Below, one piece after another: positions 236 through 7,689 of a stretch of DNA of 64,000 bases. The notes beneath the pieces are model-generated. The model was not told the DNA's origin, did not search any database, and worked only from the letters and a program-made list of their open reading frames with translations. Location of the stretch: assembly GCF_002846575.1 (NCBI RefSeq), contig NZ_PJND01000009.1:124001-188000 (forward strand). Direction: 5' to 3'. This DNA is from Flavobacterium lindanitolerans (GTDB taxonomy: Bacteria; Bacteroidota; Bacteroidia; Flavobacteriales; Flavobacteriaceae). The position numbers were made by a program, and so were the translations under genes. The first letter of the stretch is position 1. Each line of letters starts with the position of its first letter.

Positions 236-1408
236 TTATAATTCTCCTTTAAAAGCTTGATCTAGTAAACTACTTTTTAATGCTTTCATATTGTCTAACT
301 TTATCTTTAATTCTTTCGTCATTTTTTCATGTAAATTATATAATTTCTCAATTCTTGATACAGTTTGTTCTTGAACATCTAATGGTGGTAAAACCATCAT
401 TCTTTTTTCTATATTTCCTTTTGTAATATGAATCATTCCAACTCCTCGACCACCTTCTTCTTTAATTTTGTCAGTGTCCCTCTCTAATAGATAATATAAA
501 AATTTCTTTGAAACATTATCTGAAAGAGGAACAAGCTTCCATATATGATAATGATAAATTGATTTTTCACCATCCCATATTTTCGGACCAAAAGAAGCAG
601 ACCAAGCATATAATAAATCTCCTTTTTCACAATATTTATTTTCTTCCAGTTCCATATTTGAATAATACCATCCTCTATTGGAGAAAAAATTACCAACTCT
701 TAATATTGGGTATTTTCCTGCATTGAACATTTCACTTTGTTTATATGCACGCCCATTAATAACCGTAACAATTTCTGCAAGTGTTTTCTTCCTATATTTT
801 AATTCTAAGGCACTAAATTCTCCATCAAGAGAACTATTTATTAAAGCTTTAGAATAATTCAAATTATCTTCAAGTAGTGTAATTGAATTATCAATTTTTT
901 CAAATATAGTATCAAGTTTTTTAACAATTTTATTCTGTTCGGTAGGAGAGGGAACAAATATTGACCAATCTTCTATGAATTTTGTAGGTACCCTTTTTAA
1001 TCCTCCTGCCCCTGTCATACTTAATTTAGCTAAATGTATGAAAGAGCTTGTTTTAAGTGAATAATAGATCCATTTGGATGAAACAGTTTCTTTAGGTCTT
1101 AAAATATGAAATTCAGAAGATCCAAATCCAATATTATTTTCAAGATTTGTAGCAATTCCTAATTTTCCATTTTCAAAGCATGGTGTTACCTTTGCTAAAA
1201 CAACATCATTATTTTGAAAATAAGTATAACCTTTATATACTTCAATTAAAGGTTTAATTATGTTTGAACTAAAGTTTTGGTTATCTTCAATGAGCAAGTT
1301 CATTGGGACAAATGAAACTTTTAATTCGTTATTGAATTTCCCTAATTCTGATTTTTTAGGATTAATTATACAAACTTCACTAAGTTTTTTAATTTTTAAT
1401 TTATCCAT
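236..1408 (-). CDS. hsdS: Type I restriction-modification specificity subunit HsdS
   Basis: HsdS directs the type I methyltransferase/restriction complex to its bipartite DNA target. The 390-residue protein has the expected two-part layout. A first target-recognition half (about 1-175) ends in a coiled-coil spacer after a PTEQNKIV segment. A second half (about 205-390) starts with KKTLAEIV and ends with a second coil after VQEQTVSRIEKL. The length is normal for the family. The start overlaps the end of hsdM by 8 bp, so it is the last cistron of the hsdR-ATPase-hsdM-hsdS operon and probably translationally coupled. Recognition domains vary quickly, so the target cannot be predicted. I see no inverted repeats or duplicate hsdS pieces nearby that would suggest shuffling. 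Confidence 0.93.
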   Translation of the reverse strand: MDKLKIKKLSEVCIINPKKSELGKFNNELKVSFVPMNLLIEDNQNFSSNIIKPLIEVYKGYTYFQNNDVVLAKVTPCFENGKLGIATNLENNIGFGSSEFHILRPKETVSSKWIYYSLKTSSFIHLAKLSMTGAGGLKRVPTKFIEDWSIFVPSPTEQNKIVKKLDTIFEKIDNSITLLEDNLNYSKALINSSLDGEFSALELKYRKKTLAEIVTVINGRAYKQSEMFNAGKYPILRVGNFFSNRGWYYSNMELEENKYCEKGDLLYAWSASFGPKIWDGEKSIYHYHIWKLVPLSDNVSKKFLYYLLERDTDKIKEEGGRGVGMIHITKGNIEKRMMVLPPLDVQEQTVSRIEKLYNLHEKMTKELKIKLDNMKALKSSLLDQAFKGEL

Positions 1409-2903
1409 GTATCAAGGATTCTATTTGGTTTATAAAATCACTTATTTTCTTTTCATTATCTTTTATTTTTGATAATATCTTTTTGGGGGTTAAGTGTTCT
1501 ACTTCTATAATTTTGTGTGGATTTTTTGCACTGATATCATAATCTATTATATCTTCAACTGAAACCGTCCAATCATTACATCCCTCATAAGTTTTTTCAT
1601 TGGTTTGATTTCTCTTATTTGGATTTTTAAATAAATCAACAAACTCTTGCATATGCTCATAAGCAATAGGTTTATTTTTTGTCAGCTTATATGATGGATT
1701 TACTTCATAATACCAAATCTTGGAAGTAGAGCCTTTTCTATCAAAATAAAGAATATTGGTTTTTACTCCACTATAAGGTAGGAAAACACCGCTTGGTAAA
1801 CTCACAATTGTATGCACATTAAAGTTTTCTAAAAGATCTTGCTTTATTTTTTTAAAGGCATTGCTTGTTTGAAATAAAACACCTTCGGGAATTATAATAG
1901 AGGCTCTTCCTTCTAATTTCAGCATTTTCATAAAATGTTGAAGGAATAACATTTCCGTTGCATTTGTTTCTATTGGAAAATTTTGTTGAATTTGTGTCTT
2001 TTCTTTACCTCCAAAAGGTGGATTGGCTAGAATTACATTGTGTCGGTCTTTTTCTTGAAAATCTCTAATGTTTTGGGTTAGTGTATTTCCTTTATATACA
2101 TTTGGACTTTCAATGCCATGCAATATCATATTCATCATCCCCATTACATAACCTAATGAAGTCTTTTCTTGTCCGTAAAAAGTATCTGTTTGGATTGTTT
2201 CCCACCCAGATGCAGAAAGCTTTTTTTTCTTTTCGGGCAATGTCATGAATTCAAATGATTCAACTAGAAAGCCAGCACTACCAACAGCTCCATCATAAAT
2301 AGTTTCTCCTACTTGTGGGGCAACAGTTTCAACCATGGCTTTAATAATTGCCCTTGGAGTGTAAAATTCGCCTGAGTTTCCACCATCAGACCCCATACCT
2401 TTTAGCAAATTTTCATAAATATGCGATAGCTCAAATAGTTCATCAGAACTTTGAAAATCTAAACTGTCGATAATATCTAATACTTCTCTTAATGTATGCC
2501 CACTAACAATTCTGTTATCTAGAAATTCAAAAATTGCTCCTATTTTATACTTTATTGACTTTGGATTGTTATTATTATTTTTAAAATTTTGTAAATAATC
2601 AAATAAAGTTTTATTGACAAACTCAATTAGATCACTACCAGTCAGAGCCCGTTTAACATCTAATTTTCCATTTTCATCTTTAGGACATGCCCAATTTTCC
2701 CATCGTAAATCTTTGCGAATTACATATTCATATTCGTTACCATCAAGGTATGCCTCATCTGCCTTGTTGATTTCATAGTCATTTAAGAATTTCAGAAATA
2801 GAACCCAAGAGATTTGCTCTGTATAATGCATAGCACCACTAATTCCATCATCTCGTCTAAGTATATCCGTTATTCTATCTATCTTATTTTGTATGTCGCT
2901 CAT
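1401..2903 (-). CDS. hsdM: Type I restriction-modification methyltransferase HsdM
   Basis: HsdM is the N6-adenine methyltransferase subunit that, with HsdS, protects host sites using S-adenosylmethionine. The 500-residue protein starts with the HsdM N-terminal helical domain (about 8-130). It then has GEFYTPR (178-184), the SAM-binding motif DGAVGSAGF (204-212, a variant of the usual DPACGTGGF) and the catalytic NPPF (294-297), followed by a C-terminal tail that contacts HsdS. The length is normal. Its start codon overlaps the last base of the preceding ATPase gene, and its end overlaps hsdS. This is the cleanest assignment in the operon. Confidence 0.96.
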   Translation of the reverse strand: MSDIQNKIDRITDILRRDDGISGAMHYTEQISWVLFLKFLNDYEINKADEAYLDGNEYEYVIRKDLRWENWACPKDENGKLDVKRALTGSDLIEFVNKTLFDYLQNFKNNNNNPKSIKYKIGAIFEFLDNRIVSGHTLREVLDIIDSLDFQSSDELFELSHIYENLLKGMGSDGGNSGEFYTPRAIIKAMVETVAPQVGETIYDGAVGSAGFLVESFEFMTLPEKKKKLSASGWETIQTDTFYGQEKTSLGYVMGMMNMILHGIESPNVYKGNTLTQNIRDFQEKDRHNVILANPPFGGKEKTQIQQNFPIETNATEMLFLQHFMKMLKLEGRASIIIPEGVLFQTSNAFKKIKQDLLENFNVHTIVSLPSGVFLPYSGVKTNILYFDRKGSTSKIWYYEVNPSYKLTKNKPIAYEHMQEFVDLFKNPNKRNQTNEKTYEGCNDWTVSVEDIIDYDISAKNPHKIIEVEHLTPKKILSKIKDNEKKISDFINQIESLIHG

Positions 2904-4657
2904 TATGCAATTGTATCTCTTAAATAATTATATATTGTTTCAATATCATTTGAAATTTCATCCGCTTGAATATGGCTAATCATTTCGTCTAACATTTCTT
3001 CATTAAATCCTATTCCATCTAAATTATACATAGGTCTTAAAATAGTTTTAAAATCACCATTTCTAAAATCTGTTATGTTGTCTAAATTATCTCCAGTAGC
3101 ATAATTTGGTAAATTGTAAAGAGCATTTACTGCATCATTGCAATTCTTTACATCAAACAGAGTGGGGGACAATAAGTAATTTTCAATCTCTCTTCGCTTC
3201 CAAGATAGAAGATGTGTTTTTGTAAGATTATTATTGAATTTTTTAACTCTATCAAATTCTGCATGAATATTAACATTCAAGCTATTTGAAATTTGATTTT
3301 CTGGAAGCTCATCCTTATCACAAATTAGAAATATTTCTTTCGTGAGTATTTCTTTATTTAAATTTTCTTTTCTAAACTCATCAATAAAATAAAGTTTTTG
3401 TTTACCAAATATTTCGTTTGGATTATCATAACCAGAAGATTTGGCAATTGGTAAAAATTTATCGAGTGTTTCTAATATTCCATCTCCAAGTTTTTTTACA
3501 GCTAGTTTCTTAAAAATTGTCCAATCACTTACATTGTCCATGATTACAGGGTATAAAACTCTTGACAATATTTTAAACTGGTAGTTTTTCTGTCCTACTA
3601 TACTATCTAATCTTTTCGAAAGTTCTAAAAAAGTTAAACTTTCTTCGACTCTCCCATTTTCTATTACCTTAATATTCTCAATTTTATTATGTAATATGGA
3701 TTCTGAAATGTGAGTAGTAGTAATTATTATTCCTTCACAGTTATTTAGTTCTTTCCACATTTTACTCAAATTCTTGTAATATAAATGAGAATCTATTTCA
3801 TCAAAAAGAAATATAGTGCTTTCATTATCAAATAGATCTATTATTGCATAAGTGGATAAAATTTGATACTCACCATCGCTTAAATGTTTAAATTGGAGGT
3901 TGTTTTTAAATCTTAGATTGAATTCGGATAATTCGGAATTTGATAGCCAACCATTAGTTGCTAAAGCCCAAAAACTAAATAGTTTGTTTACATTTTTATG
4001 TGTAAATACTTCAAAACCTTTCCTTGAATCAAATGTTAACCATCTTTTAACTAAATTCTCATTATTTTGAAAATCAAAATCAATATCAAAAGCTTGGATG
4101 ATTTTTTCTAATGTTTCATGAAATTCAGTTTTTCTCAGCAAGTTTTCTTGTAATTCATATCCTTCATCATTTTCATTGTTTCCTAATTCTTCTCTTTCAA
4201 TTTCTTCTCTAATCTTAAATACATAGTTTTTTCTAATCCTAAATCTGAAGTCAAGTCTGCTAGAAATGTCATCACCTAGTTCATCAGTTTCAATATAACC
4301 TTTTTCTTTTAAGTAAGTTCTAACAAGTCCACTTTCTTTAAATATGGAAGACCAAAAAATCAATAACTTTATCCATTCATTATTAAAATAAAATGATTGA
4401 ATTGGCTCATTTCTTTCTCTTATATATTTTTGATTTGTTTGCTTATGTTTGTTAAAAAGTTCTGTAAAAAGTTCATTTTGTCCTGAACTGAAACAGATTA
4501 CTCTGAAATCATCATGTTCGATGTACTTTTCAAATATTGCTTCTAAAATTGATGATTTACCAGATCCATTACCACCAATAAAAGTAGTAATACCATTATT
4601 CACGCTAATTGTTTGAGGATGGTGTGAGATCTTACTTTTAAATTCTAATGTAGCCAT
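2903..4657 (-). CDS. AAA/ABC-type ATPase with TOPRIM-like C-terminus inside the hsd operon (OLD/RloA-like)
   Basis: This 584-residue protein is not a standard type I subunit. Its N-terminal half is an SMC/ABC-like ATPase: Walker A GGNGSGKSS (28-36), signature LSDGEYQ (259-265), Walker B IFLFDEID (282-289) and H-loop TTTH (313-316). The C-terminal part resembles the TOPRIM/DUF4435 module of OLD-type nucleases, with an acidic CDKDE (446-450) and REIENYLL (489-496). The usual first TOPRIM glutamate appears to be replaced in MDNVSDW (373-379), so nuclease activity is uncertain. One-base overlaps with hsdR upstream and hsdM downstream imply coupled translation. Restriction-linked ORFs (RloA, RloC, PrrC) are known in other hsd loci. 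I do not see the PrrC/RloC anticodon-nuclease motif. Being an accessory defence or alternative effector is inference. Confidence 0.8.
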   Translation of the reverse strand: MATLEFKSKISHHPQTISVNNGITTFIGGNGSGKSSILEAIFEKYIEHDDFRVICFSSGQNELFTELFNKHKQTNQKYIRERNEPIQSFYFNNEWIKLLIFWSSIFKESGLVRTYLKEKGYIETDELGDDISSRLDFRFRIRKNYVFKIREEIEREELGNNENDEGYELQENLLRKTEFHETLEKIIQAFDIDFDFQNNENLVKRWLTFDSRKGFEVFTHKNVNKLFSFWALATNGWLSNSELSEFNLRFKNNLQFKHLSDGEYQILSTYAIIDLFDNESTIFLFDEIDSHLYYKNLSKMWKELNNCEGIIITTTHISESILHNKIENIKVIENGRVEESLTFLELSKRLDSIVGQKNYQFKILSRVLYPVIMDNVSDWTIFKKLAVKKLGDGILETLDKFLPIAKSSGYDNPNEIFGKQKLYFIDEFRKENLNKEILTKEIFLICDKDELPENQISNSLNVNIHAEFDRVKKFNNNLTKTHLLSWKRREIENYLLSPTLFDVKNCNDAVNALYNLPNYATGDNLDNITDFRNGDFKTILRPMYNLDGIGFNEEMLDEMISHIQADEISNDIETIYNYLRDTIA

Positions 4658-6975
4658 TATACTGCTTGATAAATATGTTGTTGAAGTTGATAATATGCAC
4701 CTAATAAATTTTTCATGTCGCCAAAAACAACTTTTGCATCTTTTGGTGTTCCAAGTTTTAGTTTGACTAAATCGCCAAGTCTTTCTCGTTGTAATTCTTC
4801 GATCCCAAATTTTTCATAATGATTTAGAACATATTCTAAAAACTCCCTTGCTTTTAAATTTTGGTAAATGGTGAAGAAATTGTCATTACGAACAGCACTT
4901 GCTCTTTCTCTTCTTGTTTTTATATCTGAACTAAAAGAAATGTGAGATAAGACATCGAAAATATCACATTCGGGTGATGCAATCATGTCACGTAAGGCAT
5001 CTAACTGTTCTTTTTCAAAGCCTAGGGTTCCTAATTGAGCTAGGAGCTCTTTTCTTGTGTCTGGATTGGCCCATATTTTACGGAGATGATTTTCATCTTG
5101 GTAGATGGCTGGTAATTCTCCAACTAATTTTTCAAGAAATTCTCTAACAGTTAATGGTTTTCCATTTTCATCTATGTATCTTATATCAACATCAATAACT
5201 TTTAGAATTCTTCCGTTACTTAATTCTATAATTAATTTCTCTTTTCTTTCTCCATATTCTTCCTTCGGTTCTTGAATTGTAGTTACTGATGTTTTTTTTC
5301 TTATTTTTTCATCGTTAATTTCACCTGTTTCATATGTTTCAGTTTCATCTTCCGGGATTCCATCCCAGGCAGAATCATAAAATAAATCTGTTGCACCAGC
5401 AAAATCAATTATTGTAAAAAAATCTTTACCATCATAAACTCGTGTTCCTCTACCAATAATTTGTTTAAACTCAACTATTGAGCCTATAGGAGAGGTAAGG
5501 ACTATATTTCTAACATTTCTGGCATCAATACCAGTAGTCAGCATTTTTGACGATGTTAGAATTACAGGGATGTCTTTATCATTATCTTGAAACGCTTCTA
5601 AAAAATTTCTCCCAATTTTACCTTCATCAGATGTTACTCTGACGCAGTAATTAGAATCGGAAACAGTTTTGTGTTTGTTTATCATATCTCTTAATTCCAA
5701 GGCATGATCTTGATTTACGCAAAAGACAATTGTCTTTTCCATTTTTCCAATATTATTTAAGATTGCTCTTGCAATTAAATCTGTTCTTTTTGGGATTATT
5801 ATACTCTTGTCAAAGTCATTTATATCATATCTGTCCTTCTTTATTTCGCCTTGAATGACTTTGTTATCATTTGTATGAATATATTCGTCAATATTTGTTC
5901 TAATTCTTTTTACTTTATACGGAGTTAGAAAGCCATCGTTAATCCCATCACTTAGAGAATATTCATAAATTGGCTTTCCAAAATATTTATAAGTGTCAAC
6001 ATTGTCTTCTCTTTTTGGGGTTGCAGTTAATCCTAAATGAACCGCCTTATTAAAATGTGAGAGTATTGCTCTCCAAGAACCATCTTCATCTGCACTTCCA
6101 CGGTGACATTCATCAATAATAATTAAATCAAAAAAGTCAGCAGGATATGATTTGTAATAAGCTCCAATATTTTCTCGTTCTGCAATTGCTTGATAGATAG
6201 CAAAAAATATAAAAGCATTTGTTGGAACAACACCATTTCTGCTTTTGACTTCTTCACCATTGATCTTTACAAGATCTTTTTCGTATGGGTTAAAGGTGTT
6301 TATGGCTTGATCTGCCAAAACATTTCTATCTGCCAAAAATAAGATTCTTGGTCTTCTATTTTCTCCATCAATATTCCATTTTGCTTGAAAAAGCTTATGA
6401 ACTATTTGAAATGATATAAATGTTTTACCAGTTCCTGTTGCGAGGGTCAATAAAATTCTCTTCTTTTCTTCAGCAATATTCTCTAGAACTTTATTAACGG
6501 CAATTTCTTGATAGTATCTTGGACGCATTGCGCCGGTTAAATAAAATGGTATGTTATGTAATTTCTTTTTTAACTCAATGTTTTTTCCATAAAGTCGATT
6601 ATAAAGTTCTTGCGGAGTAGGGAACTTTTCAATATAATCTCCCTTTCCAACTGTTCTGTTAAACTCATATATCTGTTTACCATTTGTAGAATAAACGAAG
6701 TCTATTTTTAACTTTTCAGCATAGTCTATAGCCTGTTGAAGCCCTTTTGTTGGGTGTTCATCAGATCTTTTAGCTTCAATTAAGCCTAAATTAATATTGT
6801 TGAATTTTAAAAGATAATCAAGATATAATCTTTTCCCTCTTTGATTCCCAAGTAACTTTCTACCATCAGTGAAGTAATATTCTCTTTCAATATTATCAGA
6901 AGTCCAATCACTTTCAATAAGTTTTGGATCAATATAGTTAGCTCTTGTGTCAGCTTCAGAGATATTTTTTGTCAT
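4657..6975 (-). CDS. hsdR: Type I restriction enzyme R subunit HsdR (EcoEI-like)
   Basis: HsdR is the ATP-dependent translocase and nuclease subunit that cuts unmodified DNA away from the recognition site. The 772-residue protein opens with a PD-(D/E)XK-type nuclease region: D53, then E68-A-K70 in GLIEAKR. The superfamily 2 helicase motor follows, with motif I ATGTGKT (179-185), DECH (288-291), TATPKRED, and motif VI in GRGTRVYDG. The C-terminus looks like the EcoEI-type R subunit tail. It is first in the operon and overlaps the ATPase gene by one base. About 268 bp separate it from the XRE gene. No exact TAnnTTTG element was found upstream, only a TA-GAC-TTTG variant around 7154-7162. Confidence 0.94.
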   Translation of the reverse strand: MTKNISEADTRANYIDPKLIESDWTSDNIEREYYFTDGRKLLGNQRGKRLYLDYLLKFNNINLGLIEAKRSDEHPTKGLQQAIDYAEKLKIDFVYSTNGKQIYEFNRTVGKGDYIEKFPTPQELYNRLYGKNIELKKKLHNIPFYLTGAMRPRYYQEIAVNKVLENIAEEKKRILLTLATGTGKTFISFQIVHKLFQAKWNIDGENRRPRILFLADRNVLADQAINTFNPYEKDLVKINGEEVKSRNGVVPTNAFIFFAIYQAIAERENIGAYYKSYPADFFDLIIIDECHRGSADEDGSWRAILSHFNKAVHLGLTATPKREDNVDTYKYFGKPIYEYSLSDGINDGFLTPYKVKRIRTNIDEYIHTNDNKVIQGEIKKDRYDINDFDKSIIIPKRTDLIARAILNNIGKMEKTIVFCVNQDHALELRDMINKHKTVSDSNYCVRVTSDEGKIGRNFLEAFQDNDKDIPVILTSSKMLTTGIDARNVRNIVLTSPIGSIVEFKQIIGRGTRVYDGKDFFTIIDFAGATDLFYDSAWDGIPEDETETYETGEINDEKIRKKTSVTTIQEPKEEYGERKEKLIIELSNGRILKVIDVDIRYIDENGKPLTVREFLEKLVGELPAIYQDENHLRKIWANPDTRKELLAQLGTLGFEKEQLDALRDMIASPECDIFDVLSHISFSSDIKTRRERASAVRNDNFFTIYQNLKAREFLEYVLNHYEKFGIEELQRERLGDLVKLKLGTPKDAKVVFGDMKNLLGAYYQLQQHIYQAV

Positions 6976-7243: not shown

Positions 7244-7660
7244 TTACTTCCCCTCAATCAATTTCTCCAACCTCGCCATCATTTCATCCTTTTCCTTTAG
7301 CATACGCTCGTAGAGTGCAATTTTTTCATCATATAATTCGACTACTTTATCAATAGGATTGAAACTAGGTTGATTATTAAAAAAAGCAGGTTGTTGACAA
7401 TTGTCAAAAGAAGCAGTATTTGAGATAATGTTTACCGCCTGTTCCTCATCAAAATTCTCAATAGCCTCGGTAGGCACTTTTAGGATTTTAGCCACTTGTT
7501 CTAAAATATCCTTTTCTACGGACTCTTTTTGTTCCAGGAGAGAGATTTTCTTTTGGTTCCAGTCTTCGCCCAATTCGTAGGCTAGGGCGTCTTGCTTGAT
7601 GCCGAGCATTTCACGGAAACGCTTTATGTTTCGACCTTGGTGTATTTTCTTGTTTGGCAT
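7244..7660 (-). CDS. XRE-family helix-turn-helix regulator
   Basis: This is a small DNA-binding protein of about 138 residues. The N-terminal half is a typical XRE/Cro-C1 HTH (about 8-65: GRNIKRFREMLGIKQDALAYEL, read in two parts, then KISLLEQKE). The C-terminal half is a coiled coil rich in E, K and M (about 100-138). I chose the ATG at 7660 (MPNKK). A TTG reading could begin at 7684, but a TATATTTG -7 element on the minus strand (7689-7682) overlaps it and puts the transcript start near 7675. The gene lies between the hsd operon and a divergent SymE-like gene, so it may control either. Controller proteins of this fold are common beside restriction genes. That role is inferred. Confidence 0.82.
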   Translation of the reverse strand: MPNKKIHQGRNIKRFREMLGIKQDALAYELGEDWNQKKISLLEQKESVEKDILEQVAKILKVPTEAIENFDEEQAVNIISNTASFDNCQQPAFFNNQPSFNPIDKVVELYDEKIALYERMLKEKDEMMARLEKLIEGK

Positions 7661-7681
7661 ATCGGTATGTATCATAAATCT

Positions 7682-7689
7682 CAAATATA
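7682..7689 (-). promoter_or_regulatory. -7 promoter element (TATATTTG) of the XRE gene
   Basis: On the minus strand this matches the Bacteroidota -7 consensus TAnnTTTG exactly. It lies about 22 bp before the ATG at 7660, which supports that start over the TTG at 7684. Confidence 0.5.

Follow-up and report, generated by a model that had tools for sequence, protein, structure and literature searches.

The window, meaning the whole 64,000-nucleotide (nt) stretch of Flavobacterium lindanitolerans DNA that was analysed (contig NZ_PJND01000009.1, positions 124,001 to 188,000), carries on its minus strand a complete EcoAI-type type I restriction-modification (RM) operon in the order hsdR, AT, hsdM, hsdS. 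AT is the name used here for the second gene and for its 584-amino acid (aa) product, which according to profile matches and structure modelling is a Rad50/OLD-type ATP-binding cassette (ABC) ATPase joined to a C-terminal TOPRIM-like domain. The family to which it belongs is a widespread ATPase-TOPRIM companion of the methyltransferase subunit HsdM and constitutes a second hypervariable hsd module besides hsdS. With confidence that is evenly balanced, we read AT as an effector that backs up type I restriction and is partnered with the methyltransferase/specificity (M/S) side of the enzyme.

The AT gene is a single open reading frame (ORF), supported by profile and structure evidence, at 2903..4657 (minus strand). 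An earlier reading of the sequence, hereafter the original prediction, had assigned it positions 2903-6975, a range that includes hsdR. The hsdR gene (4657..6975, minus strand) encodes a 772-aa restriction subunit of the EcoAI/FtnUII type (NF046051, 882 bits against a cut-off of 550), in which the Pfam models ResIII and EcoEI_R_C score above their cut-offs and HSDR_N slightly under. Behind AT lie hsdM (1401..2903, minus strand), coding for a 500-aa N6 methyltransferase (N6_Mtase, 209 bits; HsdM_N), and hsdS (236..1408, minus strand), coding for a 390-aa specificity subunit (Methylase_S). Motif IV of HsdM, NPPF, is located at 2013-2024 and was read in both the translation and the DNA; the window therefore holds the R, M and S subunits that a type I system requires, with motif IV present in M. 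Reading the DNA directly also confirmed the predicted one-nucleotide overlaps of AT with hsdR and hsdM, each of which takes the form TAATG (4655-4659 and 2901-2905). No gene lies between AT and hsdM in the window, and AT is present as a single copy in the genome.

The ATPase head of AT carries all of the ABC motifs that had been claimed for it. Conservation was judged from an alignment of 51 proteins, comprising AT of the window and 50 from the loci described below (labelled with L-numbers; L007 and L085 are one genome). The Walker A motif GGNGSGKSS (residues 28-36; 4550..4576, minus strand) has K34 in 51/51, the signature LSDGEYQ (residues 259-265; 3863..3883, minus strand) has S260, D261, G262, E263 and Q265 in 51/51, and the Walker B motif IFLFDEID (residues 282-289; 3791..3814, minus strand) has D286, E287 and D289 in 51/51. 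Residue H316 of the H-loop is likewise invariant. Because 811 homologues were found at E≤0.001 among 7996 scored candidates, AT is not a chance ORF. A separate homologue alignment included the window AT and 49 of the 120 homologues listed out of these 811, and the relatives in Kaistella are 85-87% identical. Pfam matched the ATPase part alone (AAA_21, 38 bits against a cut-off of 27; SMC_N, 42 bits). No Pfam or NCBIfam model spans the whole protein above its cut-off, and PADLOC matches are partial.

The tail had been described as TOPRIM-like, and structure modelling bears this out. The model of residues 356-584 has a confidence (pLDDT) of 94. Of its ten best matches in VIA-align, nine are TOPRIM proteins, drawn from PARIS, retron Eco2, OLD and Gabija, and the remaining one is PH0156. 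Foldseek returned no match for the tail at E≤0.001; its matches for AT include TsOLD, GajA and retron Eco8. The profile searches that had been suggested gave negative results: among 47 AT tails, no match to DUF4435 (PF14491) was listed at E≤10 (HMMER filters drop most matches above 0.1), and neither the OLD-like TOPRIM family PF20469 nor RloB (PF13707) was matched by any. PF20469 also gave no match at E≤1e-6 in the genome of the window, and hhalign of AT tails against six DUF4435 proteins gave 2.3%.

In contrast to the claim that the first acidic TOPRIM residue is missing, this residue is present as D374. The segment VIMDNVSDW (lvDDedDW in the family) aligns with the lvEGxxDw motif of other TOPRIM proteins, such as those of L124-L133, which places D374 at the position of the TOPRIM glutamate; Glu is thus replaced by Asp rather than lost. 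Of the aligned proteins, 47 have D and 4 have E at position 374. This variant of EGxxD, D374...D378 (3524..3538, minus strand), follows a beta strand in the models, and both D378 (51/51) and W379 are invariant. The DxD motif, D447-K-D449 (3311..3319, minus strand, read directly in the DNA), is conserved in 51/51. Retron Eco2 relies on E374/D378 and the DxD residues D460/D462 (PMC12405507), and AriB is inactivated by E26A (PMC12409363). With all metal-site acids conserved, the first of them as Asp for Glu, the proposal that AT might signal or bind DNA instead of cutting it, made for want of the first acid, is not supported. A further motif, KRREIENYL (residues 487-495; 3173..3199, minus strand), has E490 in all 50 sequences with a letter at that position; it resembles the IENYL motif of DUF4435 and is the sole patch of AT that aligned to that family. 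RNA is the predicted substrate of AT solely because the two nearest solved folds of the tail, AriB of PARIS and retron Eco2, are both RNases.

PARIS is among the closest known systems. It also combines an OLD-type ABC ATPase with TOPRIM and is linked to anti-restriction logic, and its ATPase rule (AAA_15/AAA_21; PMC9122126) describes AT as well. AriA is the best PADLOC model for AT of the window (2.1e-12), AriB chains rank with the best structural matches of the tail, and the fused AriAB model matches AT at 8.2e-7 with its best stretch in the patch at residues 456-500. As a genome search, the AriAB profile is non-discriminating, with hits in 109/119 genomes and in 14/14 controls. However, AT lacks a DUF4435 profile match and sits in type I operons before hsdM, and on the DUF4435 test we reject membership in PARIS despite AriB being a top structural neighbour. 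OLD nucleases of classes 1-4 share with AT an ABC ATPase and a TOPRIM fold in one chain, but AT has Asp in place of Glu at the first metal-site position and no PF20469 match, and none of the class contexts given in PMC10568477 (solo, with GajB, retron, PARIS with separate AriA and AriB) fits it. The solo OLD protein described in PMC6945700 is independent of RM.

Other ATPases are linked to hsd loci or RM systems. PrrC, like RloC, is an ABC-ATPase nuclease within an hsd operon, and the general idea of an ABC-ATPase nuclease serving there as a second line is already known. According to PMC3874165 and PMC2610378, PrrC is a guardian that a type IC enzyme sequesters and that is set free upon inhibition of restriction. 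It differs from AT in having an anticodon-nuclease domain and residing in type IC loci, whereas AT has a TOPRIM-like tail and is flanked by hsdR and hsdM in an EcoAI-type locus. RloA/RloB of Campylobacter likewise places an ATPase gene inside an hsd region (PMC2928727), but this is a two-gene system with RloB as partner. Consequently, of the label 'OLD/RloA-like' given by the original prediction, the OLD-like ATPase-TOPRIM architecture stands and the RloA likeness does not: AT is a single chain with its own TOPRIM-like tail and no RloB, and its identification as RloA is rejected. The best NCBIfam model, TIGR04435 (restriction system-associated AAA ATPase), is linked to RM by name, but it scores only 33.6 bits against a cut-off of 300 (34.2, 39.9 and 23.9 bits for three relatives). 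Finally, the mad3 model of the MADS system matches AT (1.7e-11), as mad2 matches M and mad5 matches S, and mad3 is the best PADLOC model for AT of L032 and L041. This comparison was limited to mad2, mad3 and mad5, and the mad3 profile, which has 374 positions, extends over no more than the ATPase part of AT.

To survey the genomic context of the family, one genome each from 84,980 species was scanned with AT patterns. This yielded 51 loci, of which 50 were usable after L051 (no AT ORF of 80 aa) was dropped. In 47/50, the distance between the end of AT and the start of an hsdM-family gene is -14 to +6 nt. The exceptions are L011, where hsdS and an inserted gene come first, L046, which has broken frames, and L052, where AT lies at a contig end with hsdM upstream. 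A gene labelled hsdR is immediately upstream in 42/50, and both neighbours are in place in 41/50, which agrees with the earlier conclusion that AT belongs to the restriction operon. Upstream of AT in L014 and L034, ending at a distance of 81-90 nt, is an unlabelled ORF of approximately 1090 aa that probably represents another type of R. Titles of the AT-bearing records span Bacteroidota, gammaproteobacteria, Neisseriaceae, Desulfovibrio, Epulonipiscium, Cloacimonadota and Gracilibacteria. All four plasmid records with an AT match have hsdR-AT-hsdM-hsdS, and three of these adjoin PIN, Shedu or SIR2 genes. Among the matches listed for viral contigs, there is at least one distant match to AT (25%, residues 22-183).

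The original prediction had tied the proposed defence role to the presence of AT in homologous hsd loci, and here the survey returned a mixed answer. In the bacterial family of the window (199 genomes, window included), AT is found in four genomes at E≤1e-10 and hsdR in 25 (26 places) at E≤1e-100; 20 of the 25 places other than the window were fetched. AT is frequent in one hsdR lineage, being present in three of the four places where R is 75-77% identical to that of the window. In the fourth, L082, a 417-aa protein with a PDDEXK_4 domain (96 bits) lies exactly in the AT slot, between an R of 75% and an M of 78% identity. None of 16 more distant hsdR regions of the family has AT in this slot: eight have M and S before R, four have R directly before M, and four have other cargo, namely AAA_21 with RloB (L096), a Schlafen AlbA_2 protein, a 187-aa protein, or GmrSD_N with AlbA_2. 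Beyond hsdM, L093 from this set of 16 encodes an ATPase with weak similarity to AT (25% over 120 aa). In a second class (369 genomes), 18 hsdR loci with R 46-51% identical to the query showed no AT in flanks of up to about 1.5 kb. AT is therefore a feature of particular hsd lineages, and the gap between R and M is a cargo slot. Proteins of the GmrSD_N type were also seen inserted in type I operons at L037:2233-4380 (judged by N-terminal sequence) and L101:5339-7480 (checked with Pfam).

Comparison of 37 R-AT-M triples revealed that AT diverges far more than its neighbours, with median identities of 71 for R, 74 for M and 40 for AT. Identities of R and M are correlated at 0.96, and those of R and AT at 0.73. 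Across the discordant loci, AT proteins only 38-49% identical lie between R and M proteins that are 95-99% identical. Examples are L017-L041 (R 99, M 98, AT 49) and L036-L041 (R 98, M 97, AT 38), both of which join different genera judging from the record titles.

DNA identity was profiled for five discordant and two control pairs in windows of 150 nt (30 nt at the start of AT). In the discordant pairs, identity is 74-99% in hsdR and 63-100% in the first 120 nt or so of AT, to just past Walker A. It then drops to 19-73% in the interior of AT (mostly 30-65%, with 85% in one late window of L026-L045) before recovering to 90-100% over the last 60 nt in four of the five pairs (60-87% in L036-L041). 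It remains at 76-99% in hsdM and falls again in hsdS. The controls give 88-99% throughout AT (L041-L042) and about 100% save toward the 3ˊ end, where it is 73-89% (L017-L016). Two allelic groups of AT (7 and 12 loci) repeat this pattern at the protein level, with identities of 84% for residues 1-42, 18-32% for 43-245, 62% for 246-300, 84% for 481-500 and 91% for 561-584. For 22 gammaproteobacterial loci, one-sided Mantel tests detected no significant correlation of AT with S (p 0.20), R (p 0.15) or M (p 0.08), although R and M identities are correlated (p 0.001). The identity profile and these tests indicate that AT is a second recombining module of the operon that is not tied to DNA specificity, and the variable region may be its sensing face. 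A structural or specificity-linked subunit is disfavoured by the same lack of significant correlation.

These data bear on two alternative explanations. One is that AT regulates or chaperones the restriction enzyme, acting in assembly order or restriction alleviation without nuclease action. The start/stop overlaps with hsdR and hsdM do suggest coupled translation, and the ATPase motifs are intact. We nevertheless regard this role as highly doubtful because the metal-site acids are conserved, divergent alleles lie between nearly identical R and M, the unrelated PDDEXK protein replaces AT at 75-78% R/M identity, and AT is absent from many related hsdR loci. The second is that AT is an autonomous, direct sensor of a phage protein, as AriA is, and is found in hsd operons merely because defence genes travel together, with M/S being no partner. 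The hypervariable interior would suit such a sensor, PARIS is reported to protect without any type I system (PMC9122126), and PDDEXK_4, RloAB, Schlafen AlbA and GmrSD_N proteins occupy the same slot elsewhere. However, hitch-hiking alone hardly explains the strict order before an hsdM-family gene in operons with different R types, nor the pairing with the dead partner described next, and this explanation appears rather unlikely.

Further evidence for a partnership with M/S comes from the gene behind AT. In L014, L020, L029, L030, L031, L032, L034, L035, L037 and L047, this gene encodes HsdM joined to one specificity domain (621-716 aa), and similar fusions follow AT in L005, L006 and L010 of the Bacteroidota. 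The fusions were seen in alignment and were confirmed by Pfam (N6_Mtase and Methylase_S) for L014, L030 and L032. In L029, L032 and L035, R is 98.7-98.8% in common and the AT/M-S pairs are different. Motif IV is NPPF in the fusions of L005, L006, L010, L014, L029, L030, L031, L034 and L047, but in the dead METHYLTRANSFERASE partner of AT it has become SG[IVL]PF (L020, L032, L035, L037 and L141). The associated AT proteins of L020, L032, L035 and L037 have the conserved residues. In L141 (10344-12160), AT ahead of the dead fusion is divided between ORFs of 246 and 359 aa, with a 4-nt overlap close to the signature motif, which is equally compatible with a genuinely split gene, a frameshift or an assembly error.

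The L032 fusion has 178 homologues, of which the 120 listed were aligned. None of the 120 contains [NDS]PP[FYW], and Asn is kept in a single one (NVPF), although a motif I resembling DPA[ML]GTG is found in most. The disappearance of motif IV from the whole set makes its loss look old rather than a recent decay. Sequence comparison thus predicts that the HsdM partner in this clade, which is found in some, mostly marine, bacteria, is a dead methyltransferase with a decoy-like character. Plasmids gave no match to the dead fusion at E≤1e-40. In the sample of its class, three of 369 genomes match at E≤1e-50, these being the source genome and two with ordinary hsdM, and in its genus five of 227 genomes match at E≤1e-60.

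The recognition domain of the dead fusions is as conserved as the rest of the protein. Median identities among the 35 closest are 83.9% for the recognition domain and 82.3% for the methyltransferase part (correlation 0.36), and among all 120 they are 51.7% and 48.7% (correlation 0.89). In none of 230 pairs with a methyltransferase part above 85 does the recognition domain fall under 60, and yet the separate hsdS of L032 and L035 are 34% identical. No significant match was found between the recognition domain and the neighbouring hsdS in the dead-M loci and L029, whereas those of L014 and L034, with live motifs, match theirs at 35% and 25%. These comparisons indicate that the dead fusion does not follow the specificity of the operon, and that live fusions may do so. 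Beside AT/M-S pairs, two consecutive hsdM genes preceding hsdS and hsdR were noted in L029, L032 (499 and 494 aa), L035 and L144, and in L142 with one ORF between; these possibly encode heterodimeric methyltransferases.

Escherichia coli carries a version with a live motif. The AT/M-S pair, with NPPF present, is found in 100 of 5426 complete genomes at 95-100% identity (L144:13947-17578 is one example), in a convergent arrangement with a separate M-M-S-R operon near fim/nan. By annotation of 60 of these 100 records, AT is not intact in H41 and H84, and M and S are apart in H42, H74 and H84, which is uninformative on restraint. At NZ_CP095529.1 636294-639924 (L145), AT is annotated in two pieces ahead of an M-S gene that is annotated as intact, and the sialate O-acetylesterase gene next to them is incomplete.

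Live fusions of this kind speak for a third alternative, in which AT is an alternative restriction effector: M/S or the M-S fusion would find unmethylated foreign sites and recruit AT to cleave DNA, either alongside HsdR or as a substitute for it. In L030, AT accompanies an M-S fusion with no R-sized ORF within 10 kb, the E. coli pair stands beside a separate RM system, NPPF is kept in E. coli and nine listed loci, and the recognition domains of L014 and L034 resemble the neighbouring hsdS. The TOPRIM domains of OLD and GajA are also reported to cut DNA (PMC10568477). However, such recruitment cannot work in this form in the dead-M clade, where the recognition domain is conserved and hsdS is variable. 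In addition, AT does not co-vary with S, and its nearest TOPRIM folds are those of RNases. On balance, we judge this recruitment of AT to be rather unlikely.

The anti-restriction protein Ocr binds the M2S core of EcoKI. In the resting state proposed for the back-up effector that we favour, the ABC ATPase head dimer would be kept inactive, probably while bound to M/S. The trigger would be a protein from a phage or plasmid that disables or engages M/S, such as a DNA-mimic anti-restriction protein. The ATPase would then change state and free the C-terminal TOPRIM domain, which would cut nucleic acid, most likely host RNA or tRNA as AriB does, and the infected cell would be stopped. The dead M-S fusion could act as bait for anti-restriction proteins. 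We infer the M/S contact, the trigger, the ATP-dependent release, the substrate and the cell arrest. The best reading of the guard logic is that it resembles PARIS, in which AriA senses Ocr and frees AriB, leading to degradation of tRNA-Lys (PMC12707154, PMC12409363). OLD-ABC/TOPRIM modules have similarly been proposed as back-up effectors of BREX (PMC12839542). Taken together, the precedents of PrrC, PARIS and BREX, the binding of Ocr to M2S and the data for AT make a guard the likeliest mechanism, and the suggestion that AT is a second effector is plausible. A more specific version, which we put forward tentatively and as the less probable outcome, is an M/S-guard module in which AT watches the live methyltransferase in the window, and in which a mostly marine clade has retired a copy of HsdM fused to half an HsdS. 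This copy would have given up the catalytic motif and retained the DNA-binding surface as bait for anti-restriction proteins of phages, and AT would read the bait.

Guardians such as PrrC and PARIS are known, but there are few cases in which it is understood how the loss of a type I enzyme sets off a suicide effector. The natural dead M-S partner makes the decoy/guard idea directly testable, and the AT/M-S version of E. coli makes it testable there too. If the decoy reading is true, restriction operons carry an integrated decoy receptor whose sensor is swapped as freely as the specificity of hsdS. The exchange of AT cassettes and the dead M-S partner look new. A classification of TOPRIM-linked OLD ABC ATPases reported by Krishnan et al. 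(2020) may touch the AT family. No description of this family, its cassette exchange or the dead partner was found in the literature searched, which covered few subscription papers.

Ahead of the operon in the window lies a gene for a 146-aa protein (7244..7684, minus strand) with a weak match to the helix-turn-helix (HTH) model HTH_19 (0.0071, below cut-off), which presumably has a regulatory role. It is one of three paralogues in the island (G000:C9:116732-117148, 122313-122729 and 131247-131684, corresponding to L164:6729-7148, L164:12310-12729 and window 7244-7684), which are the only matches in the genome at E≤0.001. They share 88-97% DNA identity over their alignable parts, and the similarity reaches beyond the genes. 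Each is located just ahead of its own module: HNH, Vsr and C5-methyltransferase genes in one case, an HATPase protein with DarT and a macro-domain gene in another, and the hsd operon in the third. The paralogues may provide shared control or serve as recombination anchors for loading defence genes. DarT (PF14487, 143 bits) and the macro-domain gene that follows it, at L164:8430-10147, form a DarTG-like pair approximately 4 kb from hsdS.

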